64,000 bases of DNA from Natrinema salaciae (GTDB lineage Archaea; Halobacteriota; Halobacteria; Halobacteriales; Natrialbaceae). This document shows positions 30,834 to 49,814 of this stretch, one piece after another. Under the pieces are notes generated by a model. The model ran no database searches and had not been told where the DNA came from. It was given only the letters and a program-made list of their open reading frames with translations. A program made the translations under genes and the position numbers. How positions within the stretch are numbered: the first letter of the stretch is position 1; the number at the start of each line of letters is the position of its first letter. The DNA lies in assembly GCF_900110865.1 (NCBI RefSeq), contig NZ_FOFD01000004.1:186001-250000 (forward strand), in the 5' to 3' direction.

Positions 30834-30896
30834 CCGCTCTATAGGCACGTCGCTCACGAGTCTCCAGATAGCGGTCTCCGAACGATCGCGATACAC

Positions 30897-31339: not shown

Positions 31340-32053
31340 TCAGCCGCCGAGGTACAGTTTGGACACTTCCTCGTTGTCCAGCAGCTCGTCCGCTTCGTCC
31401 TCGAATCGCACCGTCCCCTGATCGAGGACGTAGCCCCGATCGGAGATCCCCAGCCCCTTCTTGGCGTTCTGTTCGACCATCAGGATCGCCGTATCCATCG
31501 CGTTGACCTCCTGCACGTCGGCGAACACGCCGTCGGCGGTGTTCGGAGCCAGTCCCGCGGAGGGTTCGTCGATCAGGAGCACGTCCGGTTCCATCACCAG
31601 CGCTCGGGCGAGTGCGAGCACCTGTCGCTGCCCGCCCGACAGGTTCTGCGCCTTCGCCGTTCGCTTCTCCTCGAGCAGCGGGAACCGATCGTACAGCGTC
31701 TCGAGGACGGGCTCGAGGTCGTCGTCGCGGGCGACGCCGCCCATCCGCAGGTTCTCCTCGATGGTGAGCGAGCCGAAGACGTTCTCCGTCTGGGGTACGA
31801 AGCCGATCCCCTCGCGGACGATATCTTCGGGGGCCATGCCGCCGATGTCCCGATCGTGGTAGGTCACTGCACCCTCCCACGGCGTCAGCATGCCGAACGC
31901 GGTCTTGAGTACCGTCGACTTCCCGGCACCGTTCGGACCGATCAGGCAGACGATCTCACCCTCGTCGAGGTGAAGCGTGCAGTCGTCGAGCACTTGCACC
32001 TCGCCGTAGCCGCTGTCGACGGCGTCGAGTGCGAGGACGTGATCGCCACTCAT
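31340..32053 (-). CDS. livF: Branched-chain-type amino-acid ABC transporter ATPase LivF
   Basis: 237 residues, a complete ABC ATPase: Walker A GPNGAGKSTVLK, signature NLSGGQRQVLALARAL, Walker B VLLIDEPSAGLAPN, and the LivF-type pattern VEQNAKKGLGISDRGYVLDQ. It is the last gene of the SBP-livH-livM-livG-livF operon, its start overlapping the stop of livG (ATGA). Together with LivG it powers import through LivHM. The likely substrate is proline, glutamate or a related amino acid rather than Leu/Ile/Val, judged only from the neighbouring catabolic genes. Confidence 0.92.
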   Translation of the reverse strand: MSGDHVLALDAVDSGYGEVQVLDDCTLHLDEGEIVCLIGPNGAGKSTVLKTAFGMLTPWEGAVTYHDRDIGGMAPEDIVREGIGFVPQTENVFGSLTIEENLRMGGVARDDDLEPVLETLYDRFPLLEEKRTAKAQNLSGGQRQVLALARALVMEPDVLLIDEPSAGLAPNTADGVFADVQEVNAMDTAILMVEQNAKKGLGISDRGYVLDQGTVRFEDEADELLDNEEVSKLYLGG

Positions 32054-34072: not shown

Positions 34073-34073
34073 C

Positions 34074-35000
34074 TCACACCCCCTCCTCGCCGATGGCTTC
34101 GCCGGCGATCCCGGTCGGTCGCAAGAGCAGTACGGCGACCATGATGAGGAACGCGACCGCGTTCGCGTACTCGATGCCGATCGGAATTCCGATATCCGAC
34201 AGGAGCGGCATCAGTTCGACGACCATCCCGATGAGGAAGCCACCGAGCATCGCGCCGTAGACGGAACCGATCCCGCCGAGGATCACTGCGGCGAAGATGA
34301 CCAGCAGCACGTTAAACCCCATCCGGGGCTCGAGGGAGTTGAACAGTCCGAGGAACCCGCCGCCGGCGCCCGCGAGCCCCGCACCGATGATCCACGACCA
34401 GCGTTTGATGCGGTCGGTTCGAATGCCGCTGGCGCGGGCCAGATCGGGATTGTCGGCCATCGCGCGCATCTTGCGCCCGAGATCAGTGTGTTGCAACAGG
34501 ACGTGGAGGCTGCCCACGAGCACGGCTGCGGAGATGACGATCGCGACGTCGTGTTCGGTCATCCGGACGCCGTAGGGCAGCAGCGCTTCGATCGGTCGGA
34601 GCGTCGCGATGTCGTACTGTGCCGTATCAGCGCCGAATCCGAGTCGAATCACGGCGCGATAGACGAACGCGACCCCGATCGACGTGATCAGCATCCCGAT
34701 CGAGCCGATGTCGAGCGGGTCGTAGACGATTTTCTCCGTGACGATCGCGACGGCGGCGGCGACGGCGAGTCCGACGAGCAACGCGACGAAAAACCCGATC
34801 GGGAGACTCAGGATGCTGAAGCCGATACCGCCGATCGCACCGAACGCGACCAGCGTCGCATATGCGCCGACGGTCATCGTATCACCGTGCGCGAAGTTCG
34901 CGAAGCCGGCGATGCTGTAGATCAACGAAAGGCCGATGCTCCCGAGAACGATGATGCTACTATATACCAGCCCGTTCGCGGCGTATTCTATAATAGACAT
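34074..35000 (-). CDS. livH: Branched-chain-type amino-acid ABC transporter permease LivH
   Basis: 308 residues, eight or so transmembrane helices, with the LivH signatures LSLIYSIAGFANFAHGDTMT near the N-terminus, RKMRAMADNPDLARASGIRT in the coupling loop, and AAVILGGIGSVYGAMLGGFL towards the C-terminus. It begins 12 bp after the binding-protein gene and shares its promoter. Confidence 0.93.
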   Translation of the reverse strand: MSIIEYAANGLVYSSIIVLGSIGLSLIYSIAGFANFAHGDTMTVGAYATLVAFGAIGGIGFSILSLPIGFFVALLVGLAVAAAVAIVTEKIVYDPLDIGSIGMLITSIGVAFVYRAVIRLGFGADTAQYDIATLRPIEALLPYGVRMTEHDVAIVISAAVLVGSLHVLLQHTDLGRKMRAMADNPDLARASGIRTDRIKRWSWIIGAGLAGAGGGFLGLFNSLEPRMGFNVLLVIFAAVILGGIGSVYGAMLGGFLIGMVVELMPLLSDIGIPIGIEYANAVAFLIMVAVLLLRPTGIAGEAIGEEGV

Positions 35001-35012
35001 TGTCAGAGCCGA

Positions 35013-36248
35013 TTACGACTGTCGGGACCCGATCGAGACGTACGCGTGGTCCTGAACTTCGATCACCTTGAGACTGCCTCGCGGATCGCCGTTCTCGTCG
35101 AAGTCGATCGGGCCGCTGACCCCCTGGTAATCGATATCCGACGGCGAGCCGCCGTCCGAGAGAATCGAATGGGCTTCCTCGTACGTGAAGACCGCCTCGC
35201 CCTCGGGGCGAGTGACGTCGCGGACGGTCTCCTGGAGTGCCGCCCCCGTGAACTCGTCGGCGGCCTGGATCGACAGTGCGGCAGTGATCACGCAGTCGTA
35301 CGCGAACGCCGACCAGGCCGTCGGCGCTTCGCCGTGCTCGTCCTCGAAGGCGGCGGCGAACGCCTTGTAGTTGTCCTGCTCCTCCGGAGCCGCCGGTTCG
35401 ACGACCTTCATGCCGTCCATGCTCCCTTCGGGCGTCCCCTCAAGGACGGAGTCACCGCGGTTGGAGTCGGCCCCGTACAGCTGGGCCTCGTACCCGCCCT
35501 CGTACATGTTGGTGACCATCGTCGCGAATTCCGTCTGGTAGGTGATACAGAGCCACGCGTCCGCACCGGAGCCGTCCATCTGAGAGACGAGACTGGAGTA
35601 CGACGATTTTTCGCCGTCGTGGGCGCTCTCGTAGACGACCTCGCCGTCGTAGGCTTCTGCGAACGCATCGTACAGACTCTCCCCGAAGTCGTCGTTGATG
35701 TAGGTGACCGCGACTTCGTCGTAGCCGTCCTCGCTGATGATGTCCGCCAGCGCGATCGACTGCGTCCGTCCGCTGGGCGACATCCGGAGGAGCCCCGGGA
35801 AGTCCGTCAGTCCGAGTCCAGTGGAGTTCTGGCTCAACTGGACGGTGTCGGTCCCCTGGATGACGCTCTCGTAGATGGCCATCGACACACCCGATCCGAC
35901 CGCCCCGATGATGAACGGAACGCCGTCCTGATTGACCAGCTTCTGTGCCGCCGACACGCCCTGCTGAATGTCACCTTCGGAGTCCTCGACGAGAATCTCG
36001 AGGTCCTTGTCTTTGACCCCGATCTCGTTGACGTCCGCCAGCGCGATTTCCTTGGCCTTCTGATTGCGTTCCCCGAAGTCCGCGAGCGACCCGGACCGCG
36101 AGTCGATCATCCCGATCGTGTACGCGTCCTCGCTGCCCTCGCTCTCGTCGGTCGTTCCGATACAGCCGGCCAACCCTGCAACGCCCAAGGCACCCCCGTA
36201 TGTCAGTATCTCTCGTCGATTTCGAAGTGATGTGTCATCAACCGTCAT
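35013..36248 (-). CDS. Amino-acid-binding lipoprotein of the LIV-type transporter
   Basis: 411 residues from ATG 36248. A Tat-type lipoprotein signal (LRNRREILTYGGALGVAGLA followed by GC) precedes a LivJ-like two-lobed binding domain (YTIGMIDSRSGSLADFGERN, GAVGSGVSMAIYESVIQGTD, LYGADSNRGDSVLEGTPEGS). It shares extensive similarity with the lipoprotein at 26.8-28.1 kb, so the two are paralogues, one with the transporter and one with the transducer. First gene of the liv operon; a CCATGG-type site lies 50 bp upstream. Confidence 0.92.
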   Translation of the reverse strand: MTVDDTSLRNRREILTYGGALGVAGLAGCIGTTDESEGSEDAYTIGMIDSRSGSLADFGERNQKAKEIALADVNEIGVKDKDLEILVEDSEGDIQQGVSAAQKLVNQDGVPFIIGAVGSGVSMAIYESVIQGTDTVQLSQNSTGLGLTDFPGLLRMSPSGRTQSIALADIISEDGYDEVAVTYINDDFGESLYDAFAEAYDGEVVYESAHDGEKSSYSSLVSQMDGSGADAWLCITYQTEFATMVTNMYEGGYEAQLYGADSNRGDSVLEGTPEGSMDGMKVVEPAAPEEQDNYKAFAAAFEDEHGEAPTAWSAFAYDCVITAALSIQAADEFTGAALQETVRDVTRPEGEAVFTYEEAHSILSDGGSPSDIDYQGVSGPIDFDENGDPRGSLKVIEVQDHAYVSIGSRQS

Positions 36249-36290
36249 AGCTGTGATCTTGGGTTCGAATTTTTCCCCGGTAATACCACA

Positions 36291-36306
36291 CCCGACCATG
36301 GACAGA
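36291..36306. promoter_or_regulatory. CCATGG site upstream of the liv operon (site 3)
   Basis: CCCGACCATGGACAGA keeps a perfect left arm of the shared motif; the right arm differs at three positions. The centre is 50.5 bp before the start of the transporter binding protein on the minus strand, upstream of an A-rich TATA-like tract at about 36268-36277. Confidence 0.55.
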
Positions 36307-36362
36307 AACCAGTTAGGTGATCGAAGAAGTGCGAAATTCCGACATTCGCGGCGGGTTTCACC

Positions 36363-36378
36363 CCCGACTATGGTCGGG
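36363..36378. promoter_or_regulatory. CCATGG-type palindrome upstream of proline dehydrogenase (site 4)
   Basis: CCCGACTATGGTCGGG is a 16-bp palindrome with one mismatch. Its centre is 44.5 bp before the proline dehydrogenase ATG, immediately upstream of TTTAGG (36385-36390), which sits at -30 to -25 as a TATA box for leaderless transcription. Confidence 0.65.
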
Positions 36379-36414
36379 TGGCCGTTTAGGCTTTGTCGAT
36401 CTAATCCACCGACA

Positions 36415-37251
36415 ATGCTCCTTCCGATTGCGAGAAATTTCGTCGCTGCCGAAGAACCGTCCGGGGCACTATCGCACGTCAAGTCACTCAACGAAGACGG
36501 TATCAACGGCATTCTCAATCTGCTCGGTGAACATTACGACGAGCCGTCGGAAGCGACTGCCGACGCGGATACGTACATCGAACTCATCGAAGCGATCGAC
36601 GACGCCGATCTCGACTGCTGTGTCTCGGTCAAACCGTCACAGATCGGCCTCGATATTGGCGACGGCGTGTTCCGGACACACCTCGAGCGGATCGTCACCG
36701 CGGGCGTCGAACACGACGTCTTCGTCTGGATCGATATGGAAGACTACACCACGACCGACGTCACGCTCGACGCGTTCGAACACCACGCACACGAGACGGA
36801 CGGGAACGTCGGCGTCTGTGTGCAGGCGAACCTGAAGCGAACGCGCGAGGACGTCGAACGACTGGCCGACGTCCCCGGGAAAGTACGCTTCGTCAAGGGC
36901 GCGTACGACGAACCGGCCGATGTCTCGTACAAGAAGAAAGAACAGGTCAACGAGTCCTATCGAGAACTACTCGCGTTTGCCTTCGAGGCGTTCGACGACG
37001 GGATCGCCGTCGGCAGCCACGATCCGGACGTCATCGAGTACGTCGAGGGGCTCTCCGAGACGCACGACACGCCCTTCGAGTTCCAGTTGCTCATGGGCGT
37101 TCGCGAGGACGCACAGCGGGAACTCGCCGCGGAGTACGACGTCTACCAGTACGCGCCCTACGGACCGAAGTGGCTCTCCTACTTCTACCGTCGTGTCCGC
37201 GAACGCAAAGAAAACGCCCTCTTCGCCCTTCGAGCAGTGCTCACGGGCTAA
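36415..37251 (+). CDS. Proline dehydrogenase
   Basis: 278 residues from ATG 36415, a compact single-domain PRODH barrel. Conserved features: VSVKPSQIGLDIGDGVFRTH, FVWIDMEDYTTTDVTLDAFE, GVCVQANLKRTREDVERLAD, VRFVKGAYDEPADVSYKKKE, GSHDPDVIEYV, FQLLMGVREDAQRELAAEYD, and the substrate-binding end YFYRRVRERKENALFALRAV. It oxidises L-proline to pyrroline-5-carboxylate with FAD. The matching second enzyme is probably the aldehyde dehydrogenase at 38.1 kb. The intervening gene on the other strand is the likely regulator. Confidence 0.93.
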   Translation: MLLPIARNFVAAEEPSGALSHVKSLNEDGINGILNLLGEHYDEPSEATADADTYIELIEAIDDADLDCCVSVKPSQIGLDIGDGVFRTHLERIVTAGVEHDVFVWIDMEDYTTTDVTLDAFEHHAHETDGNVGVCVQANLKRTREDVERLADVPGKVRFVKGAYDEPADVSYKKKEQVNESYRELLAFAFEAFDDGIAVGSHDPDVIEYVEGLSETHDTPFEFQLLMGVREDAQRELAAEYDVYQYAPYGPKWLSYFYRRVRERKENALFALRAVLTG

Positions 37252-37252
37252 C

Positions 37253-37987
37253 TTACTCGACACCGATGTCGTCGGGATCCAGTAGCTTCGATTCCGCTTT
37301 TCGCAGGTGGTCGAGCATCGTCGTCTTCGAGATGTCGAGTTCGTCGGCGAGTTCGCGGGTCGAGATGCCGCGAGGCCACTGGTAGTATCCCCGCTTGCGG
37401 GCGAGTTTGAACACCTCTCGCTGGGTGTTCGTGAGGGCGTCCATGCGGTGTTTGCGCTCGGATTCACCCGTCGGCGTACTCGTGACGGTTTCGACCGTTA
37501 CCTCGGCGCACCCGTCGTCACAGACGTGCTCGATCGCGGTTTCGATCTCGTCCCGACTGCCGGCGAATCCGACCTCCCAGTACTCCCGTCCATCCTCGAT
37601 TCGAACGGGGGCGCTGTGGACGAAGCCGTGCTCGAGCAACGTCGGACAGATCATGTCCGCGGGATCGTACTCGAGGAAGAATTCGCGGACGACGTTCCCC
37701 GGGAGCGTGGACGGTTGTCGTCGACCGAACCGTTCCTGGAGTCCGAGGACTTCGCCCGCCAGTGGCGACTCGCGAATCTCTTCGATCAACGTCTCGACCT
37801 CGTCGGTCGTCTGACCGAACGCGGTGAACAGTCCGTTGACCGACTCCCCCTCCGTGGTCGGTGCGGTGTAGATCGCGTGTGCCAGAATGCCCCCGCCGAC
37901 ACGCTCGGTCGACTCGATCGCCCAGCAGTTCGGATGCCACAACTCGAGCGTGATCCGCGTTCCGTGGGATGATCGACTCTGTGCCAT
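37253..37987 (-). CDS. HTH_10 (Bat-like) regulator, probable proline-catabolism activator
   Basis: 244 residues from ATG 37987. The N-terminal 170 residues form a haloarchaeal sensor region (RITLELWHPNCWAIESTERV, YTAPTTEGESVNGLFTAFGQ). The C-terminal HTH_10 domain is explicit: ALTNTQREVFKLARKRGYYQ, then STRELADELDISKTTMLDHL. It ends 1 bp from the convergent proline dehydrogenase stop and shares a promoter region with the aldehyde dehydrogenase. The CCATGG palindrome at 38039-38054 lies 59 bp from its own start, so autoregulation is possible. It is the natural candidate to bind all five sites. Confidence 0.85.
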   Translation of the reverse strand: MAQSRSSHGTRITLELWHPNCWAIESTERVGGGILAHAIYTAPTTEGESVNGLFTAFGQTTDEVETLIEEIRESPLAGEVLGLQERFGRRQPSTLPGNVVREFFLEYDPADMICPTLLEHGFVHSAPVRIEDGREYWEVGFAGSRDEIETAIEHVCDDGCAEVTVETVTSTPTGESERKHRMDALTNTQREVFKLARKRGYYQWPRGISTRELADELDISKTTMLDHLRKAESKLLDPDDIGVE

Positions 37988-38038
37988 GGTGTATCTAGGT
38001 ACATCCCATGCAAATAGTTCTCGTTTCACGAATTGCCC

Positions 38039-38054
38039 CCCGACCATGGACGGG
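38039..38054. promoter_or_regulatory. CCATGG palindrome upstream of the aldehyde dehydrogenase (site 5)
   Basis: CCCGACCATGGACGGG is a 16-bp palindrome with one mismatch per arm pair. Its centre is 44.5 bp before the dehydrogenase ATG at 38091, the same distance as at proline dehydrogenase, with TTATTC (38060-38065) at -31 to -26. Confidence 0.65.
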
Positions 38055-38090
38055 TCCCGTTATTCGATGCCGACGAGCCAATCGCTATTC

Positions 38091-39632
38091 ATGAGTCAAC
38101 AAACCGCGGAGCAGGTATACGGCCACCATATCGACGGGGACTGGACCGATGGTGACGGAGACGAAACGTTCGAGAGCGAGAATCCGGCGACGGGCGAGAC
38201 GCTCGCACGGTTCCAGCAGGGGACCGAGAGCGACGTCGACGCCGCCCTCGCGGCCGCCGAGGACGCGGCCGAAGAGTGGCGCGAGCTGTCCTACATCGAC
38301 CGCGCGGAGTACCTCTGGGACATCTATCACGAGCTACGCGAGCGCACCGACGAACTCGCCGAAATCGTCACCAAGGAGTGTGGCAAGGAGATCAGCGAAG
38401 GCCGCGCGGACGTCATCGAGGCCTACCACATGGTCGAGTGGGCGGCGGGCAACGCGCGTCACCCCCACGGGGACGTCATTCCGAGCGAGATCGGTAGCAA
38501 AGACGCCTCCATGCGGCGCAAACCCCGCGGCGTCGTCGGCTGTATCACGCCGTGGAACTTCCCGGTCGCGATCCCGTTCTGGCACATGGCCATCGCCCTG
38601 GTCGAGGGCAACACCGTCGTCTGGAAGCCCGCCGAGCAGACGCCGTGGTGCGCCCAGATCATCGCCGAGATGATGGACGACGCAGGCATCCCCGACGGCG
38701 TCTTCAACATGGTACAGGGCTTCGGCGACGCCGGCGCGGCCATTAGCGAGGACGATCGGGTCGACACCGTCCTCTTTACGGGCTCCGCGGAGGTGGGTCA
38801 CGAGATCGCCAGCAAGGTCGGCGGCCAACCCGGCAAACTCGCAGCATGCGAGATGGGCGGCAAGAACGGAATCGTCGTGACCGAAGAGGCGGATCTGGAC
38901 ATCGCGGTTCACTCCGCGGTGATGTCGAGCTTCAAGACGACCGGCCAGCGCTGCGTCTCGAGCGAGCGCCTGATCGTCCACGAGGACGTCTACGACGAGT
39001 TCAAGGAGCGCTTCGTCGAAGTCGCGGAACGCGTCACCGTCGGCGACCCGCTCGAGGAGGGGACGTTCATGGGCCCGGCCATCGAGGCCGAGCACGTCGA
39101 GAAGATCCGCCAACACAACCAGCTGGCACGAGACGAGGGTGCGGAGGTACTCGTCGACCGGGAGGACCTCGCGGACGAGGAGATTCCGGACGGCCACGAG
39201 GACGGGCAGTGGGTCGGCCCGTTCGTCTACGAGGTCAGCGCCGACGAGACCGACCTCGAGTGTGTGAACGAGGAGTGTTTCGGTCCGCACGTCGCTCTAC
39301 TCGAGTACTCGGGTGACATCGAGGACGCGGTCGAGATCCACAACGACACGCCGTACGGCCTCGCGGGCGCGATCATCTCCGAGGACTACCGCCAGATCAA
39401 CTACTTCCGCGATCACGCCGAACTCGGACTCGCGTACGCGAACCTGCCGTGTATCGGCGCGGAGGTCCAGCTCCCCTTCGGCGGCGTCAAGAAGTCCGGC
39501 AACGGCTACCCCAGCGCTCGAGAAGCCATCGAGGCCGTCACCGAGCGCACCGCCTGGACGCTGAACAACTCGAAGGATATCGAGATGGCACAGGGACTGT
39601 CGGCGGATATCGAGACCTCGAGCGACGACTGA
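38091..39632 (+). CDS. Aldehyde dehydrogenase, probably L-glutamate gamma-semialdehyde (P5C) dehydrogenase
   Basis: 513 residues from ATG 38091. NAD(P)-dependent ALDH fold: ITPWNFPVAIPFWHMAIALV, VLFTGSAEVGHEIASKVGGQ, general base Glu in ACEMGGKNGIVV, catalytic Cys in TTGQRCVSSERLIVHEDVYD, and ECFGPHVALLEY near the C-terminus. Pyrroline-5-carboxylate dehydrogenases belong to this superfamily, and the proximity to proline dehydrogenase and the shared operator suggest that role: P5C to glutamate. Related semialdehydes are alternatives. A longer ORF upstream reads through the operator and is rejected. Confidence 0.88.
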   Translation: MSQQTAEQVYGHHIDGDWTDGDGDETFESENPATGETLARFQQGTESDVDAALAAAEDAAEEWRELSYIDRAEYLWDIYHELRERTDELAEIVTKECGKEISEGRADVIEAYHMVEWAAGNARHPHGDVIPSEIGSKDASMRRKPRGVVGCITPWNFPVAIPFWHMAIALVEGNTVVWKPAEQTPWCAQIIAEMMDDAGIPDGVFNMVQGFGDAGAAISEDDRVDTVLFTGSAEVGHEIASKVGGQPGKLAACEMGGKNGIVVTEEADLDIAVHSAVMSSFKTTGQRCVSSERLIVHEDVYDEFKERFVEVAERVTVGDPLEEGTFMGPAIEAEHVEKIRQHNQLARDEGAEVLVDREDLADEEIPDGHEDGQWVGPFVYEVSADETDLECVNEECFGPHVALLEYSGDIEDAVEIHNDTPYGLAGAIISEDYRQINYFRDHAELGLAYANLPCIGAEVQLPFGGVKKSGNGYPSAREAIEAVTERTAWTLNNSKDIEMAQGLSADIETSSDD

Positions 39633-39745
39633 TCGGCGTGGGTCGCACGAGCGACCGAACTGCAGTCGCGCTCGAGTGATGGTCACGACTGATCGGCGCG
39701 ACGAGTGGGAACCACTAACTTCGCACCCGGAGAATCGGTCGATCG

Positions 39746-40165
39746 ATGAGCGGACTGAAGACCATCGTTCGACACGGGTTCGCCGGTAGTGGGGCCGCGA
39801 CGCTGGTGCTCGCGGGACTCTTCGTCGTCAACGGCGGCTTACAGGCGCTCGAGACACTGCTCGTGATCGGGTGGCTGATCGTCGTCGGTGTCACACTGCT
39901 TCTCGCCGGCACCCGAGAACGGCTCGCCGTTGGCGGACGGGCCGTCGGCTGGCCCCGCGTCGCCGCGATTGGGGTCGGTATTCTTGGGATCGGTTGTGCC
40001 GGGTTCGGTCTTTCGCAGCTTCGAACTCTCGAGGTCGCGAGCGGGGCGTGGCTGCTCACTGCTGCGCTTACAGTGTTCGTAGTCGGGTACGTCACGTGGT
40101 TCGCCCGCGAGTGCTGGACGGGTGGCCGTCAGTTGGACGAGGAGATGTTCGCCGTCGAGCGGTGA
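39746..40165 (+). CDS. Small four-helix membrane protein
   Basis: 139 residues with four hydrophobic helices: GAATLVLAGLFVVNGGLQAL, LLVIGWLIVVGVTLLLAG, VAAIGVGILGIGCAGFGL and WLLTAALTVFVVGYVTWFA. It ends in a short acidic tail. It matches no family known to me. It sits between the dehydrogenase and the AT-richer insert and has normal haloarchaeal codon use. Confidence 0.6.
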   Translation: MSGLKTIVRHGFAGSGAATLVLAGLFVVNGGLQALETLLVIGWLIVVGVTLLLAGTRERLAVGGRAVGWPRVAAIGVGILGIGCAGFGLSQLRTLEVASGAWLLTAALTVFVVGYVTWFARECWTGGRQLDEEMFAVER

Positions 40166-40168
40166 GAC

Positions 40169-40828
40169 GTGCTCGAGCTAAGTGCCATCGTAAAAAAGTA
40201 TGGGGTATACTCTGGCCACGTGTATACGGACAGCGAGTTAGTGAAGACGGACCCTGGATATACGAGTAGCCACGGAACTGGCAATCAGGGTCCGATGCTG
40301 TTTGGCGATTGGATTCCAGACAATCCGATTGATAGTATCATAAACAAAGGAAAAGACATCATCGACGGTGCAACGGATAAGTGGGAGGAGACTGTGGAGT
40401 TCGTCTCCAACAACGACAAGATCGAGTCCGCAGTTGATCTCGGTGAAGACGCGTACGGTTTCGGTAAAGATGCTTTGAATCCGGTCGACGGTGATGAACC
40501 GCCTGAGGGACTCGAAAACTGGTTCCAAGACAACAACTTCGACCACTGCGCAACGCTTGACCTCACCAAAACTTGTTGGAATATTGATGCTGCTGCTCTT
40601 GCCGGGGCTACCGGATTCACGGTTGCCACGGGGAGTGCCGGTGCGGTTACCTATGCTGTCCCGAAAGGTATTACGGAAGCGTGTCTCGTTATTTCGGGAG
40701 TTGACGCGGTATTGAGTGATGCAGATGATGTCTGTAATCCTACTAATCTCTACGTCTTCTGTCCGAATAATCCAGCGGACAATCAGGAACACCCCATTCC
40801 TCCCGTGGCCGTACCTCATTGCAAGTAG
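40169..40828 (+). CDS. Cys-containing candidate halocin-type protein
   Basis: 219 residues from GTG 40169; an ATG at codon 43 (40295) is an alternative start. An Asp/Lys-rich helical N-terminal region is followed by a compact C-terminal region with six cysteines (C127, C136, C172, C189, C198, C218) flanking a small-residue hydrophobic core, IDAAALAGATGFTVATGSAG. Halocin C8 has the same plan: an N-terminal immunity/leader part and a C-terminal Cys-rich hydrophobic peptide. No signal peptide is seen here, unlike HalC8. Base composition is AT-richer than the flanks, suggesting transfer. A structural or virus-type protein is an alternative. Confidence 0.4.
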   Translation: MLELSAIVKKYGVYSGHVYTDSELVKTDPGYTSSHGTGNQGPMLFGDWIPDNPIDSIINKGKDIIDGATDKWEETVEFVSNNDKIESAVDLGEDAYGFGKDALNPVDGDEPPEGLENWFQDNNFDHCATLDLTKTCWNIDAAALAGATGFTVATGSAGAVTYAVPKGITEACLVISGVDAVLSDADDVCNPTNLYVFCPNNPADNQEHPIPPVAVPHCK

Positions 40829-40882
40829 TCGAGAATTGACTGAATAGATAATATCAAGCGTGAACGTTTGTTTAATAATACT

Positions 40883-41161
40883 ATGGAATACGCAATACAT
40901 CTCTTGCTCATGGTCGGTATAGCATTAATTGGACTATTTATCCGACATGTGCTTAACATTCCTCCGACAGAGTATCAGACCTTTGTAATGACGATAATAA
41001 TGTTTGCCATACTCACAGTAGCAGTGTTTCTGCCGGGCCACAATTCATTCAAGAAAATCATCATAGCCGTTGGTCTCGGATTTGCTATCGTGGGTTTCAA
41101 TGACACGCTCTGGAAGAAGTATCGAATGGGAAAAAGCGTCACAGAACCGTTTGACGAGTAA
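40883..41161 (+). CDS. Three-helix membrane protein, candidate immunity factor
   Basis: 92 residues from ATG 40883, with an AT-rich box (GATAATATC) about 30 nt upstream. Three transmembrane helices: AIHLLLMVGIALIGLFI, FVMTIIMFAILTVAVFL and IIIAVGLGFAIVGF, then a short polar tail. It follows the Cys-containing gene by 54 bp in the same direction and shares its AT-rich composition. Small multi-helix membrane proteins next to bacteriocin genes often confer immunity; that role here is inference. Confidence 0.5.
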   Translation: MEYAIHLLLMVGIALIGLFIRHVLNIPPTEYQTFVMTIIMFAILTVAVFLPGHNSFKKIIIAVGLGFAIVGFNDTLWKKYRMGKSVTEPFDE

Positions 41162-41789
41162 GCAGTTGAGAGAATCGTTACGGCACCTCGACTACTGGGT
41201 AGCTATCCGGATCGACAGGACCCCGGTGACGCGCGGGTGCCAGACGTAGACAGGGAACATCACGCCGAAGATGAGGAGCGCTGGTCACCGGTTCTGGTGC
41301 CAGACGTGCCCTATCTCGAGGAGAGCCCCAAACGGAGCACTGTGCGATGGAGGAGGGATGCGAATGTCTGCTGGAGGCGACGCTCCCAGACGGAGTTGCT
41401 CCGCGCTTCGATCATCGCTCATCGTCGTGGCGCTCGAGAGTACGTCGTCCTTGACGGGAGGGCCTGATCGTTGTTGGATGTCGTTACGCACCGTCGTGAT
41501 CGGACTCATCGACGCTCGAAAACGCACTTGGGGATGATGGCCATCGGCTGGCGAGCGCCGCTGCGGGCATCGTACTCGTCTCCCACCCGTTCATGGTGTT
41601 GCTGAGCTACGCGCTCCGGATCGCGACGATCGCCGCGCGGACCGCGGATTTCGGGCCGTTCGTCCCGCGATCCTCGAGCGAACGGGGTCGACCCGGTGAC
41701 CGTACTCGGCGCAGCCGCTCGGTCCGAACGGACGCGGGGGAGAGCCAGCCGGGAGTACAGCCAAGGGGACGGCCGGACAACCGTCGCGT
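41162..41789. other. Gene-free stretch with a membrane-protein remnant
   Basis: No intact gene. From about 41495 a forward frame reads SDSSTLENALGDDGHRLASA then HPFMVLLSYALRIATIAART, a protein-like segment with a hydrophobic helix but no start codon. It looks like a decayed membrane protein. GGTGCCAGACGT occurs twice, exactly 60 bp apart (41236-41247 and 41296-41307). I assign no function to either. Confidence 0.35.
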
Positions 41790-42173
41790 ATGACGGACGA
41801 CCGCACTCGCGACGAGCCGACGCCGATCGAGGAGGCGCGAACGGATTCGTTCGACCTCGAGCACTCCGAGCGCGTTCGGATCGGCGTGACGCGCGGCGAG
41901 ACCGACCTCGAGCTCGGGCCGCCGCGGGACTACCCCGACCGGGCCGACGTGTCGGTACGACCCGAGTCGGCGGACGGGCACCGGATCGTACTGAGCATCG
42001 ACGCGATGGCGGGCGACCACGGCACGGGTCACGCCGACGTCGAGCTGACGCCGATCGAGGCGCGGACGCTCCGCGATCGACTCGACGATATCGTGCGCTG
42101 GATGACCGAAGCGGACGCCGACCCCGATCGCGCGGATGGAACGGGCGACGGCGACGACGCCGGCCGGCACTGA
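41790..42173 (+). CDS. Haloarchaeal hypothetical acidic protein
   Basis: 127 residues. The central part has beta-strand character (ERVRIGVTRGETDLELGPPR, GHRIVLSIDAM) followed by a helix, LTPIEARTLRDRLDDIVRWM, and a disordered Asp-rich tail. It resembles small haloarchaeal proteins of unknown function. No partner gene is obvious; the next gene is convergent. Confidence 0.6.
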   Translation: MTDDRTRDEPTPIEEARTDSFDLEHSERVRIGVTRGETDLELGPPRDYPDRADVSVRPESADGHRIVLSIDAMAGDHGTGHADVELTPIEARTLRDRLDDIVRWMTEADADPDRADGTGDGDDAGRH

Positions 42174-42179
42174 GGCGGA

Positions 42180-42584
42180 TTACTCCGGGCTCGGCGACTG
42201 CTCGCGGGACAGGTACCCCGCCAGATCCGACGTCGTCACCATCCCGATGACGCCCTCGTCCTCGTCGACGACGGGGATGTGGTGGAAGCCGCGTTCGACC
42301 ATCACGTCCGCGGCGTCGCGAATGCTGTCCTGGGCCGAGGCCGTCACGACGTCGGTACTCATGTACTTCGAGACCGGCGTCTGATCCTTCGGCCGCTGTT
42401 CGGCGACGATCCGGACGAAGTCCGTCGTCGTCAAAATCCCCTCGAGCTGGTTGTCGTCGTCGACGATGACGACCGATCCGATTCCGTTCTCGAGCATTTC
42501 CTGTGCCGCTTCCTCGACGAGCGTGTCGGGCGCCGCCGTGTGCAGCGACGAGGACATGACTCGCGCGACGAAAATATCCTCCAT
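42180..42584 (-). CDS. CBS-domain pair protein
   Basis: 134 residues comprising two CBS motifs: MSSSLHTAAPDTLVEEAAQE with IGSVVIVDDDNQLEGILTTT, and STDVVTASAQDSIRDAADVM with FHHIPVVDEDEGVIGMVTTS. Stand-alone CBS pairs bind adenosyl nucleotides and usually regulate a partner enzyme or channel. No partner is adjacent; the next genes are a divergent DNA-processing operon. Confidence 0.9.
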   Translation of the reverse strand: MEDIFVARVMSSSLHTAAPDTLVEEAAQEMLENGIGSVVIVDDDNQLEGILTTTDFVRIVAEQRPKDQTPVSKYMSTDVVTASAQDSIRDAADVMVERGFHHIPVVDEDEGVIGMVTTSDLAGYLSREQSPSPE

Positions 42585-42804
42585 ACGGAATACTATTGGT
42601 TAAACACTATAAGGATTGTCGGAGTCGGAACCCTCGACCGGTGGAACGGCCCCCGCCCGGACATCCGTCGCGTCGGCGGGTTCGACATCCGTCGGGTCGG
42701 CTCGTCGGGCCGATCGGCGGTCGACCGCGTTCGACTCGAGCGTCGTCTCCACCACGTGCCCACATTTAAGTAGCAATTCCGCCATACTCGGTGACGTACG
42801 ACCG

Positions 42805-45063
42805 ATGGCGTCTCCCCCGCCCGCACTCGACGGCGTCTGCAAACTCCGTCCCGCACCCGCATCGGGTAGCGACGTGTTCGCCGGCGTCGCCGCCGAGTAC
42901 GCCGCGCTCGCCGACGAGTACGGCCCGCGAAACGTGCTGGTCCTGAAACGGCATCCGGCGGGCCTCGAGCCCCTGATCGACGCGCTCGCCGACGCCGACC
43001 GCGAGCGGGCCGACGGTGGTCCCCGCTCGCCCCGCGTCGAGTCTCTCCCGGAACATGCCTCGAAGACCATCGAGGAGTTCGATCCGACGCTCGACCGCCT
43101 CGAGTACGAGGAACGTATCGAGCTCATCTCGCTGGTGATCGACGGGGCGAGCCGCGCGGTGCCCGCGTACCTCGAGCGCGCCGCCGACCACGAGAGCTTC
43201 GCCCGCGACGTCGGACAACTGCTGCTCGAGGCGACCCGACAGCGGCTCCGGCTCGACGAGCTCGCGGTCGAGGACCCCCACGACTGTCTGGCGTTCCTCT
43301 ACGCGATGAACGACCGGTTCCACGCGGAGCTCGACGACCGCGGATACGTCGAGCGGGCGGACGTGGTCCCGCGCGCCGTCGACCTGCTCGAGCGGAACGC
43401 GGACGGACTTCGGACCCGCGTCACCGCCTCCGTCGACGCCGTCCTCGCCGTCGAGTTCGAGGAGTACCGACGGCTCGACCGGCGATATCTCGCGGCGCTC
43501 ACGGGCGACGCCGACCTCGTCTGTCTCGGCGAACGCCACGCCAGCGTCGAGCGGACGCGAGTCGAACCGGGCCGCGTCGCGGCGATCGCGGCCGAGGCCG
43601 GCCTCGAGATCGAACCGCTCGACGCCGGCGCGGAACGCGACGCGGACGAGACGCCGCCGCACCGAGCGATCACGCGATTCCTCGCGACCGGCGAGCCGCC
43701 GACGCGAGCCGCGGCTCCCGAAGACGGAGACGGGCAGACGGGCGTGAACCCGACGGGCCGCGCCCGACGTATCCGCACCGAGACCGCCCGGGAACAGGTC
43801 CGGGCGGTCGCCACCGAAATCCAGTCGCTGCGCGACCGCCACGGCTGGGCCGCCGACGAGTTCGCCGTCGCCGTCCCGCGGATCGAGCGAGTTCCCGAAA
43901 CCAGACGGCGGCTGCGGGAGGCGGGCGTCCCGACCGCGACGGTCGGCACGCCATCGCTCGCGGAGGACCCCGCGGTGAACGAACTCTACGCGGTCGTCAC
44001 GCTGCAGTGCGAGCGCGCCCGCGACGGCGACGCGCTGGCCCCGGCCGAGCCCGACGCGTCCGCACGCGACTCGAGCGATCCGCGAACCGCCTCGCTGAAC
44101 CGCCTCCGTGCCCGCGTTCCGGACTTCTCGCCGGCCCTCCTCGCGGAGACCGACGGCTCGAGCGTTCGTCGCTCGCTCGAGCGCTGGGTCCGCCGGACGG
44201 ATCTGAAGGGGCGGATCGCCCGCGAGGAGGACTGGATCGACGCCCGCGAGCAGTACGCGGGGCTCCGGCGGGTCCTCGAGATCGCCCGGTTCGTCGAGGA
44301 GACGGACCTCGTAGGCCCGGACTGGCAGGGCCTGCGCCGGATGCTCCGGCGGACGATCCAGTACGACGCGCCCTACGTCCACGCGGTCGAGACGCGGCCG
44401 CCGGCCGGCGGCGTCACCGTCTGCGCCGTCGACGACCTGAAGTACGACTCGCGGACGGCCGTCTTCCTGCTCGATCTGATCGACGAAACCTATCCGGGCG
44501 AACAGTTCCTCACGCAACTGTTCCCGACGGCCTGGCTGCGGGAGATGCCGGCCTACCCCGCGGTGACCGCCCCGTCGCTCGAGGACGTCGCTGACACGTT
44601 CGAGACGGCCGACGCCGATATCGGCGATCCGTTCGAAACCTACCACGCCCAGCGAGCGCGCCGCCGGCTCGCGCTCGGCTCCCGGGCCGCCGAACGCGCA
44701 CTCTACGTGTGCTCCTACGAGCGCGGCTCCGGCGGGCTGCGCCGGACCTACGACGAGTCGCGCTACCTGAAACTGCTCGAGTCGACGCCCGGGCTCGCGC
44801 TCGAGGACGTCGACGCCGCCGCCGACGCGGCGATCCACGGCGAGACGAACGCGCTCGAAGCGCTGCTCGACCAGCCCCGCGGCGAACTCGAGCGGGTGCT
44901 CCGGGAGGCCAGCACCGGCGGCGAGGCGGATCTCGGCGAGACGGAGGCGCTGTTCGAGGAGATCGCGGTCGTGCTCGCGGACGGCGACGTCGACGACGAG
45001 CTCGCCGAGGCGGTCCGATCGCAGTTCGAGTTCGCTGCGGGCGAGGTGGTCCGCCGTGACTGA
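42805..45063 (+). CDS. Degenerate UvrD/AddB-like helicase-fold protein
   Basis: 752 residues from ATG 42805. The layout follows an SF1 helicase, but the Walker A region reads FAGVAAEYAALADEYGPRNV with no GxGKT, so it cannot hydrolyse ATP. Helicase-like pieces remain: RTETAREQVRAVATEIQSLR, VTVCAVDDLKYDSRTAVFLL near motif V, and RALYVCSYERGSGGLRRTYD. Inactivated helicase-like subunits of this type are typical of AddB and RecC, which scan DNA for their partner. Its stop overlaps the GTG of the next gene (GTGACTGA). Family assignment is by fold pattern and operon. Confidence 0.65.
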   Translation: MASPPPALDGVCKLRPAPASGSDVFAGVAAEYAALADEYGPRNVLVLKRHPAGLEPLIDALADADRERADGGPRSPRVESLPEHASKTIEEFDPTLDRLEYEERIELISLVIDGASRAVPAYLERAADHESFARDVGQLLLEATRQRLRLDELAVEDPHDCLAFLYAMNDRFHAELDDRGYVERADVVPRAVDLLERNADGLRTRVTASVDAVLAVEFEEYRRLDRRYLAALTGDADLVCLGERHASVERTRVEPGRVAAIAAEAGLEIEPLDAGAERDADETPPHRAITRFLATGEPPTRAAAPEDGDGQTGVNPTGRARRIRTETAREQVRAVATEIQSLRDRHGWAADEFAVAVPRIERVPETRRRLREAGVPTATVGTPSLAEDPAVNELYAVVTLQCERARDGDALAPAEPDASARDSSDPRTASLNRLRARVPDFSPALLAETDGSSVRRSLERWVRRTDLKGRIAREEDWIDAREQYAGLRRVLEIARFVEETDLVGPDWQGLRRMLRRTIQYDAPYVHAVETRPPAGGVTVCAVDDLKYDSRTAVFLLDLIDETYPGEQFLTQLFPTAWLREMPAYPAVTAPSLEDVADTFETADADIGDPFETYHAQRARRRLALGSRAAERALYVCSYERGSGGLRRTYDESRYLKLLESTPGLALEDVDAAADAAIHGETNALEALLDQPRGELERVLREASTGGEADLGETEALFEEIAVVLADGDVDDELAEAVRSQFEFAAGEVVRRD

Positions 45064-46108
45064 CGCCGCGGCGACCGGCCCACCGCTCGACATCGACGGC
45101 CTCCGGACCGCGCTCCACTGCCCCCGCCGATACGAGTTCGCCCACGTCCACGGCCTCGAGGGCGGCGACGACGACGCGATCGACGACCGCGTCGACCTGC
45201 TGCGGACCGCCATCTGCGACGCGCTCCGGAGCGGCGAGACGGATCGCGAGGAACTCGAGGCCGTCGCCCGCGATCGACTCGCGACGCGCTGGACCGACCA
45301 CGACGAGCCGTTCCACTCCGCGACGCAGCGCCGCCACGAACGCCGGGTGCTCGAGGCGACCCTGTCCGCGTACCTCGAGCGCGTCGGGGCCGACCACGCG
45401 GCGGGGATCGAGCGGCTGGACGACGACGCGGCCCGCGGCGAGCTGATCGGGCCGCGACTGCCGCTCTCGAGGACGATCGGGATCTCGGCGTCGAGCGCGA
45501 CGGCCGACGACGGACGCGAGGGCGACGCGGTAACGATCGACGCGACGGTCGACTACGTCTACGGCGACGGCTCGTCGATCGTCGGCGTCCGGTTCGTCCC
45601 GACGCTCGCGCCGCTGGGTCGCCTGCGCTACCGGTCCGAGTGGGAGGGCGACGTCGCCGAACTGTTCGCCGATCACTTCGACGCCGATTCCGACGCGTTC
45701 GACCCGGACCCGGTCGGTGCGCTCTTCGAGACCGCGGTCGTCCTCGACGGCCTCCGCGGCCTCCGCGACCGACTCGAGCTCGAGGACCGGACCTGTCGCT
45801 ACGTCCAGATCCCGCTGGCCGATCGGTCGAGGACGACGGTGAACTGGGTGCGGGGCACCGTCGAGACGAGCCTCGAAGTCGCCGATCTGACCGACGTCTA
45901 CATCGATCACCACACCTACGGCATGACTCACGAGCATCGGAACGACACCGTCGACGATCGGCTCGCCGCGGTCGCCGCCCGGTTGATTTCGGGACCGTTC
46001 GATCCGTCCGAGCGGTGGGAGCGGATCGCGGAACACGCCTGCCCCGACTGTGACTACACCGTCTGCTGTCAGGAGTACATCGCCCAGGAGGTGCGCTTCG
46101 ATGGCTGA
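45056..46108 (+). CDS. Cas4/AddB-like Fe-S nuclease fold, probably inactive
   Basis: 350 residues from GTG 45056. Cys22 in LHCPRRYEF and C329, C332 and C337/C338 in CPDCDYTVCCQEYI match the four-Cys [4Fe-4S] staple of Cas4/AddB-type PD-(D/E)XK nucleases. In the expected active-site strand pair, TIDATVDYVYGDGSSIVGVR, the D/E-x-K triad is missing: GVRF stands where DYK would be. It therefore looks like a non-catalytic DNA-binding subunit. It is coupled to both flanking genes by 8-bp overlaps, so the three products are made together. Confidence 0.65.
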   Translation: MTDAAATGPPLDIDGLRTALHCPRRYEFAHVHGLEGGDDDAIDDRVDLLRTAICDALRSGETDREELEAVARDRLATRWTDHDEPFHSATQRRHERRVLEATLSAYLERVGADHAAGIERLDDDAARGELIGPRLPLSRTIGISASSATADDGREGDAVTIDATVDYVYGDGSSIVGVRFVPTLAPLGRLRYRSEWEGDVAELFADHFDADSDAFDPDPVGALFETAVVLDGLRGLRDRLELEDRTCRYVQIPLADRSRTTVNWVRGTVETSLEVADLTDVYIDHHTYGMTHEHRNDTVDDRLAAVAARLISGPFDPSERWERIAEHACPDCDYTVCCQEYIAQEVRFDG

Positions 46109-49100
46109 GGAGGGACGGCCGACGGCGGACGCCCGGGATCTCGTCGCCGCCGACGGGGTCGAGCCGAGAGGCAATCAGCAGACGGTCATCGACAGTCGCG
46201 CGGCCTGTACCTCGGTCGACGCGGGAGCCGGCACCGGAAAGACGACGACCATGCTCGTCCGGATCGAGCGCGCCATCGAACGGGGGGAGGTCGATCCCGA
46301 CGACGTGCTCGTGTTGACCTTCGCGAACGAAGCCGCCGCGAGCATTCGCGCGGCGGTCGCCGAGCGGCTCGATCCCGACGCCGCGGCGGCGATCGACGTC
46401 TACACCTATCATTCGTTCTGTTACCGGCTCGTCCGCGAGTACGCCTACTACCTGGGGTACTCGCCCGAGTTCGACGTCGTCACCGAGCGCACGCGGCGGC
46501 GGATCATCGGCCGGTTGCTCACCGAAAACGACTACGGCTTCGCGGCCGCGTCGACCCGCAACGACGGCTCGTCGGCCGACCTCACGGATTCGGTCGACCG
46601 CTTTATTCGGGCGATGAGTCAGGAGGACGTCACGCCCGCGGACCTCCAGTCGGGACTGCCGCCGGTGCGAACCCTCGAACTGTGCAACGAGTTCGTCCTG
46701 TGGCTCGAGCGGACCGCCGGCGAGGAGCTGTCCTTCGACAACGAGGCGCTGCGCTACTTCAACCGGGACGACCACCTCGAGACGGCCCGGGAGTCGCTGG
46801 TCGACTACGGGAAACTGGTCTCGTTCTGCCGGGAGAAGATCGCGGAAGCGCCGGAAGCCTTTCGCGACGACGACCTGGTTCGGGATATCGATCAGTACCT
46901 CCGAGTGCTGCAGACGTGCGTGACGAACACGATCGACACGCTCTCGCTGGACGACCGAACGACGAAACACCTGCCGCGGGCGCTGTTCGGCAACCGGATC
47001 TGGGGACAGGCGACGAGCCGGATCGAACAGACCCCCTTCGGTCGCCTGAAACACTACGTCGAGTTTCTGCGGCTCGCCCGCCACTACACCGACGTCTACG
47101 CGGACTACCACGCGCACCTCGAGCGCGAGCGGACGATGGACTTCGACGAACTGGTGCGGACGGCGACCGGCCTGCTGGACGACGACAGAATCGCCGCGGA
47201 GATCACCGACCGGTGGAGCCAGGTCTACTGCGACGAGTTCCAGGACACCGACGAGACGCAGTTCGCGCTGCTCACCGAACTCACGGACGGCGCCGACCGA
47301 CCCGATCTGCTCGCGATCGGCGACAAGGACCAGGCGATCTACGGCTGGCGCGGCACGGACCGCGAGGGGCTGGACCGGCTGGCCGACGCCTACGACGACC
47401 ACCGGGGAATCGAGCTCGAACTCAACTTCCGCTCGCGACAGGAGATCCTGGACCTGACCAACGCCTGTGACTACGGCCCGCAGTCCTCGAAGACGCTGCG
47501 GGAGGACGGCCGGACGGCCGGCACGTACGACGAGCGCGAGCCGCCGGATCGGGTCGTCAAGATCGAGAGCGACGCGGTCCCGCAGTCGACCCCCGAGCAA
47601 GTCGCGACGACGGTCTCGCGGCTGCTCAACGGGGAGGCCGCGAACGTCCCCCGGCGCTCGCTGGGCGACATCGCGGTCATCGTCCGGACCAACCGCCACG
47701 CGCAGGCGGTGGCCGAGGAGCTCCGCGAGTTGCAGATCCCCTACGAGATCTCCGGCTCGCCCCGGGGGGAGATCTCCCCCGGCATTCGGACCGTCCTCTC
47801 GTACCTCCGCATCCTCGTCGAGCCGACCGCGGACGCCCACCTCCGGCGCGTGCTGCTCTACCGCTACCGGCTCACGGAGGGGGATCTCGCGACGCTACAG
47901 CGGCAGGACGGCTCGCTGTACGACGCGGTGACGGCGGCCGATCCGGCGGCGCTCGACCTCGAGCACCCCGAGCGGCTCGAGACGGCTCGCGATCACGTCG
48001 CCGCCCTCGAGCGGTTCCGCGACGTCTACCCGCTCTCGGGCTTTCTGCGCCGGTTCCGGGAACTGACCCGAATCGAGTGGTTCTGCGCGAGCGAGGAGCG
48101 CGCGCAGTTCGACCGGATCGAGCGGTTCGTCGAGGCCTACACCGCCGACGGCGTCGTCCAGTCGCTGACGACCGACTTCGTCGAGGCGCTCGCGGGGACG
48201 CTCCGGAGCGGCGGGAGCGACCGGGCCCGCGGGAGCCGATCGGCGGACAGCGTCGACGTGATGACGGTCCATCAGGCCAAAGGTCTCGAGTTCGATACGG
48301 TCCTCGTCCCCTTCCTCTCGGACGAGGAGTGGTGCGTCGACGGCGACTACGTCGAACGGGCCCGCTATCGGCTGCTCGCTGCGACGCTGGACGACGAGGT
48401 CGATGCCCCCCTGCTCGCCGATCTCGCGGCCGAGCGGGTCGGCGAGGAGTGGCGGGTGCTCCACGTCGCGCTCACCCGGGCCGAAGAGCACCTGTTCCTG
48501 TTCGGTTCCGACTACGACTACGACGGCGCGGCCGACGAACTCGCGGCGTCGACGGCCGAGACCTGTCTGGCTGCCGATATCGAGTGGTCGGTGACCGGCC
48601 AGCGGATGAACCTGTGGTCGTCGCTGACCGAGAGCGTCGAGCGCGTCCGCGAGACCTACCCCGAGACGGTCGTCGACCGGACGGACGAGATCGCCGCCTC
48701 GGCCGGCGAGAGCCCGGGAACGATCACTTACGACGCCGACTCCGACGACCGCCCCGTCGAACCCCTCGAGACCCGTGAGGCGATCGCGACCGTCCACCGG
48801 CTGGGCCGGCTGCTCCGCGACGGATCGCTGTTGCCGGCCGCCGACGCCGCGAGCCACGGCGGCCTCGAGGGCGGGAGCGACGACCGACCGGGGCCGAGTC
48901 GGACCCGAATTCCGAGCGGGCGGCGTCTCTCCGCGCTGACGGCCGACACGGTCCGGTTCCCCGTCGAAACGCTCGCGGCCGCGACCGAGCTGCCGGTCGC
49001 GATGCGACACAGCTACTCGGCGATGGACACCTACGAGACCTGCGCGCGGAAGCACTACCTCGATCACGTCGTCCGGGCGATCGACGATCCGATCGGCGCA

Positions 49101-49814
49101 GCCGCGGGAGACGCCGCGGAGCCCGAGACGAACGGCGGGCCGTCCGCGGCGACCGACGACTCGGCGTCGCGAGTCGTCGGCACCGTCTTCCACGACGTCG
49201 CCGAAGAGGCCTTCCACCGGGAGTACCGCACCCGCGAGGCCTGGCGGGAGGCTGCCGTCCGACAGCTCACCGCGCGGGATCTGCTCGAGCACCGCGAGGC
49301 CGTGCTCGCCTGCGTCGACCGCTACTTCGGGGCGAGCGCACCCGCGTTCGACCGGCCGATCGCCGACTGGGAGACGCTGGCCGCGGAGCTGCCCTTCGCG
49401 CTCGAGGACGTGGCCGGCGTGACGGGAGACGTGGTCGGCTACGTGGACTCGGTCCGACGGCTTCCCGACGGCGGACTCGCCGTCCTCGACTACAAGACGA
49501 CGGCCGAGCGGATCGCGCCCACAGACGCGGTCCAGCTCTCGCTGTACCTGCGGGCCTGCGCGGACCGGTTCGACGAGCCGCTGTCGGCCGCCGGCTACGT
49601 CTACGTCGGCGACGTCGACGGCCCCCGCGTCGATCTCTTCGAGCCCGGCGAGTTGCCGCCGTGGGAGTCGGTGCTCGAGACGCTCGAAGCTGTCGACGAG
49701 CCGTCGTTCGCCGAGACGACGTCCGGCGAGCACTGCCGGCACTGTCCCCACCGGTCGCTGGGCTGTGGGCCGGACGAGTACGCGCCCGGAACCGACGCGA
49801 CGGGTGACGACTGA
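46101..49814 (+). CDS. UvrD/RecB-type helicase with C-terminal Fe-S PD-(D/E)XK nuclease
   Basis: 1237 residues from ATG 46101. SF1A helicase motifs are complete: Walker A DAGAGTGKTTTM, motif II VYCDEFQDTDETQ, motif III AIGDKDQAIYGWRGTD, motif IV ELNFRS, motif V MTVHQAKGLEFDTVLVPF, motif VI LHVALTRAEEHLFLF. The C-terminal nuclease has GYVDSVRRLPDGGLAVLDYK (D...DxK). Its iron-sulfur staple cysteines are C981, C1212, C1215 and C1222. This is the architecture of AddA/RecB plus an AddB-type Fe-S nuclease. With the two overlapping upstream genes it probably forms a DNA-end resection complex. Confidence 0.88.
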   Translation: MAEEGRPTADARDLVAADGVEPRGNQQTVIDSRAACTSVDAGAGTGKTTTMLVRIERAIERGEVDPDDVLVLTFANEAAASIRAAVAERLDPDAAAAIDVYTYHSFCYRLVREYAYYLGYSPEFDVVTERTRRRIIGRLLTENDYGFAAASTRNDGSSADLTDSVDRFIRAMSQEDVTPADLQSGLPPVRTLELCNEFVLWLERTAGEELSFDNEALRYFNRDDHLETARESLVDYGKLVSFCREKIAEAPEAFRDDDLVRDIDQYLRVLQTCVTNTIDTLSLDDRTTKHLPRALFGNRIWGQATSRIEQTPFGRLKHYVEFLRLARHYTDVYADYHAHLERERTMDFDELVRTATGLLDDDRIAAEITDRWSQVYCDEFQDTDETQFALLTELTDGADRPDLLAIGDKDQAIYGWRGTDREGLDRLADAYDDHRGIELELNFRSRQEILDLTNACDYGPQSSKTLREDGRTAGTYDEREPPDRVVKIESDAVPQSTPEQVATTVSRLLNGEAANVPRRSLGDIAVIVRTNRHAQAVAEELRELQIPYEISGSPRGEISPGIRTVLSYLRILVEPTADAHLRRVLLYRYRLTEGDLATLQRQDGSLYDAVTAADPAALDLEHPERLETARDHVAALERFRDVYPLSGFLRRFRELTRIEWFCASEERAQFDRIERFVEAYTADGVVQSLTTDFVEALAGTLRSGGSDRARGSRSADSVDVMTVHQAKGLEFDTVLVPFLSDEEWCVDGDYVERARYRLLAATLDDEVDAPLLADLAAERVGEEWRVLHVALTRAEEHLFLFGSDYDYDGAADELAASTAETCLAADIEWSVTGQRMNLWSSLTESVERVRETYPETVVDRTDEIAASAGESPGTITYDADSDDRPVEPLETREAIATVHRLGRLLRDGSLLPAADAASHGGLEGGSDDRPGPSRTRIPSGRRLSALTADTVRFPVETLAAATELPVAMRHSYSAMDTYETCARKHYLDHVVRAIDDPIGAAAGDAAEPETNGGPSAATDDSASRVVGTVFHDVAEEAFHREYRTREAWREAAVRQLTARDLLEHREAVLACVDRYFGASAPAFDRPIADWETLAAELPFALEDVAGVTGDVVGYVDSVRRLPDGGLAVLDYKTTAERIAPTDAVQLSLYLRACADRFDEPLSAAGYVYVGDVDGPRVDLFEPGELPPWESVLETLEAVDEPSFAETTSGEHCRHCPHRSLGCGPDEYAPGTDATGDD

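Follow-up and report, generated by a model that had tools for sequence, protein, structure and literature searches.

Within a 64,000-nucleotide window of Natrinema salaciae DNA (contig NZ_FOFD01000004.1, positions 186,001 to 250,000), three overlapping genes at 42805-49814, here termed A, B and C, probably encode the subunits of a single DNA-end helicase-nuclease, comparable in type to AddAB, AdnAB and RecBCD but with a split layout. Gene A (42805..45063, + strand, ATG start) encodes a helicase-like protein of 752 aa, of UvrD/AddB type and lacking a Walker A motif, which is predicted to be a scaffold or strand-channel subunit with an inactive motor. Gene B (45056..46108, + strand, GTG start) encodes a 350 aa Cas4/AddB-type PD-(D/E)XK protein in which the Fe-S cysteines are present and the catalytic residues are lost. 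Gene C (46101..49814, + strand, ATG start) encodes a 1237 aa UvrD-type superfamily 1 (SF1) helicase with a C-terminal Fe-S PD-(D/E)XK nuclease, the putative engine. The genes are joined by two 8 bp start-stop overlaps (A/B at 45056..45063 and B/C at 46101..46108, both on the + strand), with coordinates exactly as given in the initial annotation of this DNA, which had been made from the letters of the window by themselves. Neither a RecD-type second motor nor a third helicase is found within the overlapping A-B-C unit.

The arrangement is strongly conserved. A, B and C occur together in all 80 complete haloarchaeal loci, the A/B overlap measuring 8 bp at 49 loci and 4 bp at the other 31, with a B/C overlap of 8, 4, 1 or 11 bp in 80/80 (the start codon nearest the upstream stop was chosen, which favours short overlaps). 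Among 84,980 species genomes scanned, 79 A loci came up, all haloarchaeal, and apart from contig ends the A-B-C order is kept on one strand at every one of them, down to ~33% identity. Since all 80 complete loci share gene order, strand and short overlaps, a chance neighbourhood of the three genes is ruled out.

Judged from its motifs, C is an SF1A motor with a C-terminal RecB-family nuclease, predicted to be active. The Pfam domains UvrD_N, UvrD_C and PDDEXK_1 all score far over their cut-offs. Walker A (A41-T48), DEFQD (378-382), GDxDQxIYxWRG and motif VI are present in the helicase, and the nuclease contains H1031, D1116 and D1130-Y-K1132 along with four cysteines (981, 1212, 1215 and 1222), in full agreement with the earlier description of C as a complete UvrD-type helicase carrying an Fe-S nuclease. 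Helicase and nuclease motifs are kept in every untruncated member. The C profile matches AdnB over several stretches.

A was proposed to be helicase-like without Walker A, and this is borne out across the family: the motif is absent from the aligned N-terminal region of all 87 A proteins, and no Walker-A-like pattern is found anywhere in these (0/87). Window A by itself has no significant Pfam match, and single-sequence searches of the PDB with A and with B gave no match, a profile being required for A. With a 31-member A profile, the best PDB match is AddB (3u44_B, E 9e-9), followed by UvrD1 (E 6e-7). The AlphaFold model of A (predicted local distance difference test (pLDDT) 70, predicted template-modelling score (pTM) 0.67) was compared to known structures by Foldseek, the best matches being UvrD (E 7e-21) and AddB (E 8e-20, query template-modelling score (TMq) 0.55-0.57), and next AdnAB and RecB. 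The model thus confirms a helicase-like (UvrD/AddB) fold, predicted to lack a working motor. In profile-profile alignments by hhalign, A matches UvrD-Cas4 fusions (E 2.8e-15), methanogen and bacterial AddB (E 6e-13), C (E 4e-11) and haloarchaeal AddB (E 7e-11). Only the AddB alignments cover the N-terminal region of A; those to the fusions omit the first 150 residues. In a maximum-likelihood helicase tree, which contains no AdnAB sequences, A and AddB together stand opposite all active motors (branch support 100/99), AddB itself forming a clade with support 89/90. Family models give weaker signals: NCBIfam addB_Gpos matches 16 of the 31 A members and Pfam ADDB_N 6/31, all weakly and under cut-offs, while the NCBIfam addB equivalog (cut-off 903.7 bits) leaves window A unmatched, with E 8e-5 for the best member.

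Window B retains the Fe-S cysteines C22, C329, C332 and C338, which are invariant across 31 aligned members. Its active site is degraded, D-Y-K being replaced by V-R-F (V178-R179-F180) and the catalytic His by Arg50, with D166 still in place. By itself it matches PDDEXK_1 below threshold (E 0.012), and the same domain is found in 30 of the 31 aligned B proteins (up to E 2e-25), two of which match Cas4 as well. Profile-profile alignment of B to AddB nucleases gives E 1.6e-8. In the nuclease tree, B splits into an accessory branch and a window branch. The catalytic His and D-Y-K are intact in 29 accessory-branch members and gone in all 56 untruncated window-branch members. Hence the claim that B is an Fe-S protein without its catalytic Lys holds for the window and its branch and does not extend to the 29 intact relatives; the same applies to the proposed combination of one active and two inactive subunits, which moreover differs from bacterial AddAB with its two active nucleases (PMC4027173). 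An active ancestor and a single loss would be the simplest history of B. Window-branch B compared to its relatives has a ratio of nonsynonymous to synonymous substitution rates (dN/dS) of 0.28-0.47, indicative of purifying selection, so the catalytically dead B is still selected.

Of 61 relatives, 35 have A, as do 140 of 391 Halobacteria (51/86 genera), one match among the latter being weak (E 1e-5). In the window's family it is present in 89 of 101 genomes, and in other Halobacteria in 50 of 290. Outside Halobacteria, a phylum survey returned only weak matches in UvrD-Cas4, AddB and other ~1000-aa proteins of other archaea. The window type is chromosomal and near-universal within its family; the divergent accessory type, located on plasmids and in defence islands, accounts for the 50/290 outside it. 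Natrinema zhouii carries both, the window type on its chromosome and the accessory type on a plasmid.

The surroundings of the two branches differ in kind. The accessory trio was found on 16 plasmid records, with restriction-modification (R-M) and phospholipase D-like (PLD) genes as neighbours, as well as BREX-5 pglZ accompanied by genes for methyltransferases and for a metallophosphoesterase. The trio forms the distal part of a prokaryotic Argonaute (pAgo)-PLD(AgaP)-A-B-C cluster in 6 of the 27 loci of this branch, and the same order recurs on one plasmid. The gap from PLD to A is ~6 bp in these clusters, in which Piwi and PLD domains were confirmed. Two further loci have only a truncated PLD/AgaP remnant directly before A, and in a third the end of a PLD gene lies at the contig edge. 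pAgo-AgaP (APAP) is an experimentally shown haloarchaeal plasmid and virus defence system, and its authors remarked that some of the ago-agaP operons have a helicase gene close by (PMC11442185). In three loci the accessory trio is preceded, at a distance of ~0.5 kb, by a pair of Mre11-like and Rad50-like genes; in a fourth this upstream pair is further away. Neighbours of the 54 window-branch loci are CBS proteins (37/54), uvrA within 10 kb (19/54) and other housekeeping genes, and none of the kinds searched for (pAgo, PLD, Mre11/Rad50-like, R-M) occurs in any of the 54. PADLOC has no system or model that includes A; window B matches no model, accessory-branch B gives weak Cas4/DruK matches only and C generic UvrD models only. 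As no PADLOC match identifies the trio, a known PADLOC defence system was rejected. A viral origin was likewise rejected: an accessory-branch A found no match among the phages of the collection, and viral contigs contained no relative.

Checking UvrD relatives in trio-less genomes brought to light two-gene operons of fused AddB (1060-1082 aa) and AddA (1213-1301 aa), mostly overlapping and with clear addA/addB matches. Fused AddB-AddA is present in 85 of 391 Halobacteria (E < 1e-50), on 44 plasmid records, and in other archaea, apparently methanogens. The profile best match of haloarchaeal fused AddA is AddA, unlike that of C. On the Natrinema pellirubrum plasmid pNATPE02, a fused AddAB operon directly adjoins BREX brxA and brxB. 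Outside the window's family, trio and fused AddAB co-occur in 12 genomes compared to 12.8 expected (Fisher p 0.86, with manually transcribed genome lists); the two are independent, and mutual exclusion was rejected. A NurA-family gene was found in 144 of 145 Halobacteria tested, including this genome (G000:C7:159159-160103). The idea that the trio stands in place of NurA therefore fails, and it was rejected as a HerA-NurA replacement. The Haloferax volcanii control also gave a NurA-family match over cut-off, contrary to a review stating that HerA and NurA are absent there (PMC7776575).

We infer complex formation, polarity, strand assignment and physiological role of the trio by analogy, as follows. 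C would be the sole ATP-driven motor, UvrD-like and expected to move 3'-5', with its nuclease at the exit. A would act as a dead helicase similar to AddB/RecC, clamping the duplex, splitting the strands and guiding one of them, and B would be the AddB-type Fe-S nuclease module on its own polypeptide. The AddA motor plus nuclease, the AddB nuclease and the AddB N-terminus would thereby map onto C, B and A, respectively; if so, the window enzyme should unwind from the end by means of C, thread the strands through A and cut with the C nuclease alone, comparable to RecBCD with its one nuclease. The accessory branch would have two cutting subunits, B and C, each acting on one strand in the manner of AddAB. 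Within defence islands, accessory copies could act on DNA that is broken or comes from invaders, and some of them could pass fragments on to an Argonaute. For the chromosomal copy of the window, the most likely task is to resect or degrade chromosomal DNA at breaks as well as linear DNA of foreign origin. On best reading, the accessory type serves defence, whereas the window type, one of its nucleases being lost, appears domesticated. Both roles named in the initial annotation, DNA-end processing and virus defence, may hence hold, each for its own branch: the accessory branch is associated with defence islands and pAgo, the window branch with a conserved chromosomal setting. It is conceivable, though we put it forward tentatively, that the trio constitutes an undescribed class of three-protein DNA-end machine, of which the accessory form, clustered with an active Argonaute and its PLD partner, supplies the Argonaute with invader DNA fragments, and the second form, with one nuclease disabled, has been domesticated and belongs to the core chromosomal repair equipment of an entire archaeal family.

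The putative kinship of A with AddB on which this model draws is suggested by the predicted fold, the PDB profile match, the tree branch and the hhalign alignments that start from the A N-terminus. The tree branch, together with the AddB-type four-Cys Fe-S signature of B and the addB_Gpos matches, could also be taken to mean that the trio is true AddAB, consisting of archaeal AddA and AddB orthologues with addB merely split in two. We consider this improbable, as B lies outside the AddB nuclease clade (support 96/96), the nuclease of C has Fe-S cysteines, scores are far under the equivalog cut-offs, and real fused AddB-AddA operons of the same order are present beside the trio in 11 members of the window's family. 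C itself scores higher with PcrA (278 bits) and AdnB (218) than with AddA (200) or RecB (126). An AdnAB-type origin, in which a UvrD-Cas4 (PF12705) fusion gene was duplicated, one copy becoming C and the other giving rise to A and B by splitting and decay, is also unlikely, if a little less so. It is in keeping with the AdnAB plan of two UvrD+nuclease paralogues (PMC13309787), with the full-length match of C to single-protein UvrD-Cas4 fusions from other archaea (292-316 bits, the best case matching A and B collinearly) and with the better hhalign E-value of A to these fusions than to AddB. However, approximately unbiased (AU) tests reject the grouping of A with UvrD-Cas4 (p 0.016) as well as with C (p 0.020), and the N-terminal 150 residues of A skipped in the fusion alignments do align with AddB. 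Several observations weigh against the split AddAB/AdnAB/RecBCD-type machine that we favour: AddA is not the top match of C; the placement of C among AddA/RecB, UvrD and UvrD-Cas4 is not settled by the tree, a grouping of C with AddA and RecB being neither recovered nor rejected (p-AU 0.40); the grouping of A with AddB may partly be due to long-branch attraction of degenerate motors, A being a long branch; and the structure model of B is poor (pLDDT 59), its fold search not being significant. The AddAB/RecBCD-like division of labour originally proposed is nevertheless the best reading, with the proviso that the trio is not AddAB proper, because AddB is split, scores are far under cut-offs, C is nearest to PcrA/UvrD and the real fused operons are separate. 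Of the two outcomes that the initial annotation named as refuting it, neither occurred: A shows the fold that was expected, and the three genes stay together in evolution.

As to function, the trio might be a dedicated antiviral or antiplasmid system in every lineage, the chromosomal window type included. The association of the accessory branch with defence islands and with pAgo-AgaP, a defence system shown by experiment in haloarchaea (PMC11442185), would fit this, as would the reported link of UvrD-Cas4 fusions to defence (PMC5704561). It appears doubtful for the window branch, which is near-universal (89/101), chromosomal and located next to CBS genes and, in 19 of 54 loci, within 10 kb of uvrA, without defence neighbours of the kinds searched for in its 54 loci; nor does PADLOC identify the trio or hold any system with A. 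That A, B and C are mere neighbours with no joint function is scarcely credible, as order, strand and overlaps persist in every complete locus on plasmids and chromosomes, even at ~33% protein identity.

In the window, the trio is flanked by CBS and PAS-kinase proteins. The divergent CBS-domain gene (42180..42584, - strand) is a conserved neighbour of window-type trios, outside the machine itself, and TTTAAGTA at 42765..42772 (+ strand), 33-40 nt 5' of gene A, is a candidate archaeal TATA box proposed from its letters. The distance between the trio and uvrA (23735-26698) is 16 kb in the window, compared to ~3 kb in 17 relatives, and G+C content is lower to the left of 42 kb than to the right. 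An insertion or rearrangement may have taken place between the two (region 23735-42600).

The trio family and the true AddAB operons together indicate that RecBCD-type processing is widespread, and partly mobile, in Halobacteria. Reviews of archaeal break repair, in the sections available, deal with Mre11-Rad50 and HerA-NurA but do not take up machines of the RecBCD type. As the split design puts the dead helicase and the Fe-S nuclease on separate proteins, the role of each could be examined by omitting it. The two branches, moreover, set two predicted active nucleases against one in a contrast that evolution has provided. The pAgo-PLD-A-B-C cluster provides a genetic route to ask whether Argonaute guides stem from a dedicated end-processing enzyme, an idea that so far rests on the co-precipitation of TtAgo with AddAB and on RecBCD-shaped guide patterns in E. 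coli (PMC10269773).

Compared to known systems, the trio would on best reading work like AddAB, AdnAB and RecBCD, yet its sequences fail membership of each. In bacterial AddAB the single motor is that of AddA, both strand exits are furnished with a nuclease, and the UvrD-like N-terminus of AddB reads Chi (PMC4027173). The trio shares with AddAB (RexAB) the predicted plan in which an active, nuclease-bearing SF1A motor is combined with a helicase-like dead-motor subunit and an Fe-S nuclease; AddB is the top PDB sequence match of A, and resembles A in its UvrD-like fold with non-functional motor and B in the four-Cys Fe-S signature framing the nuclease. It differs in that the helicase-like and nuclease parts of AddB are two genes at every locus examined, in the PcrA/UvrD-like motor and Fe-S nuclease of C, in reaching no family cut-off, and in the dead PD-(D/E)XK site of B in the window's branch. 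Actinobacterial AdnAB likewise has two UvrD-plus-nuclease units, of which AdnB is matched by the C profile, but in the trio the dead-motor unit is two proteins and A has no Walker A. With RecBCD, the window branch has in common a single predicted active nuclease and catalytically dead RecC-like partners, while having one motor rather than two, no RecD and a weaker match of C to RecB. UvrD-Cas4 fusions, archaeal and bacterial (PMC5704561), are full-length relatives of C with an Fe-S nuclease and defence contexts, but stand alone as single polypeptides, with no counterparts of A and B to partner them. The fused AddB-AddA of Halobacteria and other archaea are also helicase-nuclease operons, of two genes, in which AddB is one protein (about 1030-1080 aa) and AddA is AddA-like, and form a lineage separate from the trio. 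APAP is followed by the accessory trio in six loci and on one plasmid; the trio is neither described nor tested in the available sections of PMC11442185, and the window copy, without pAgo, stands in its conserved chromosomal setting.

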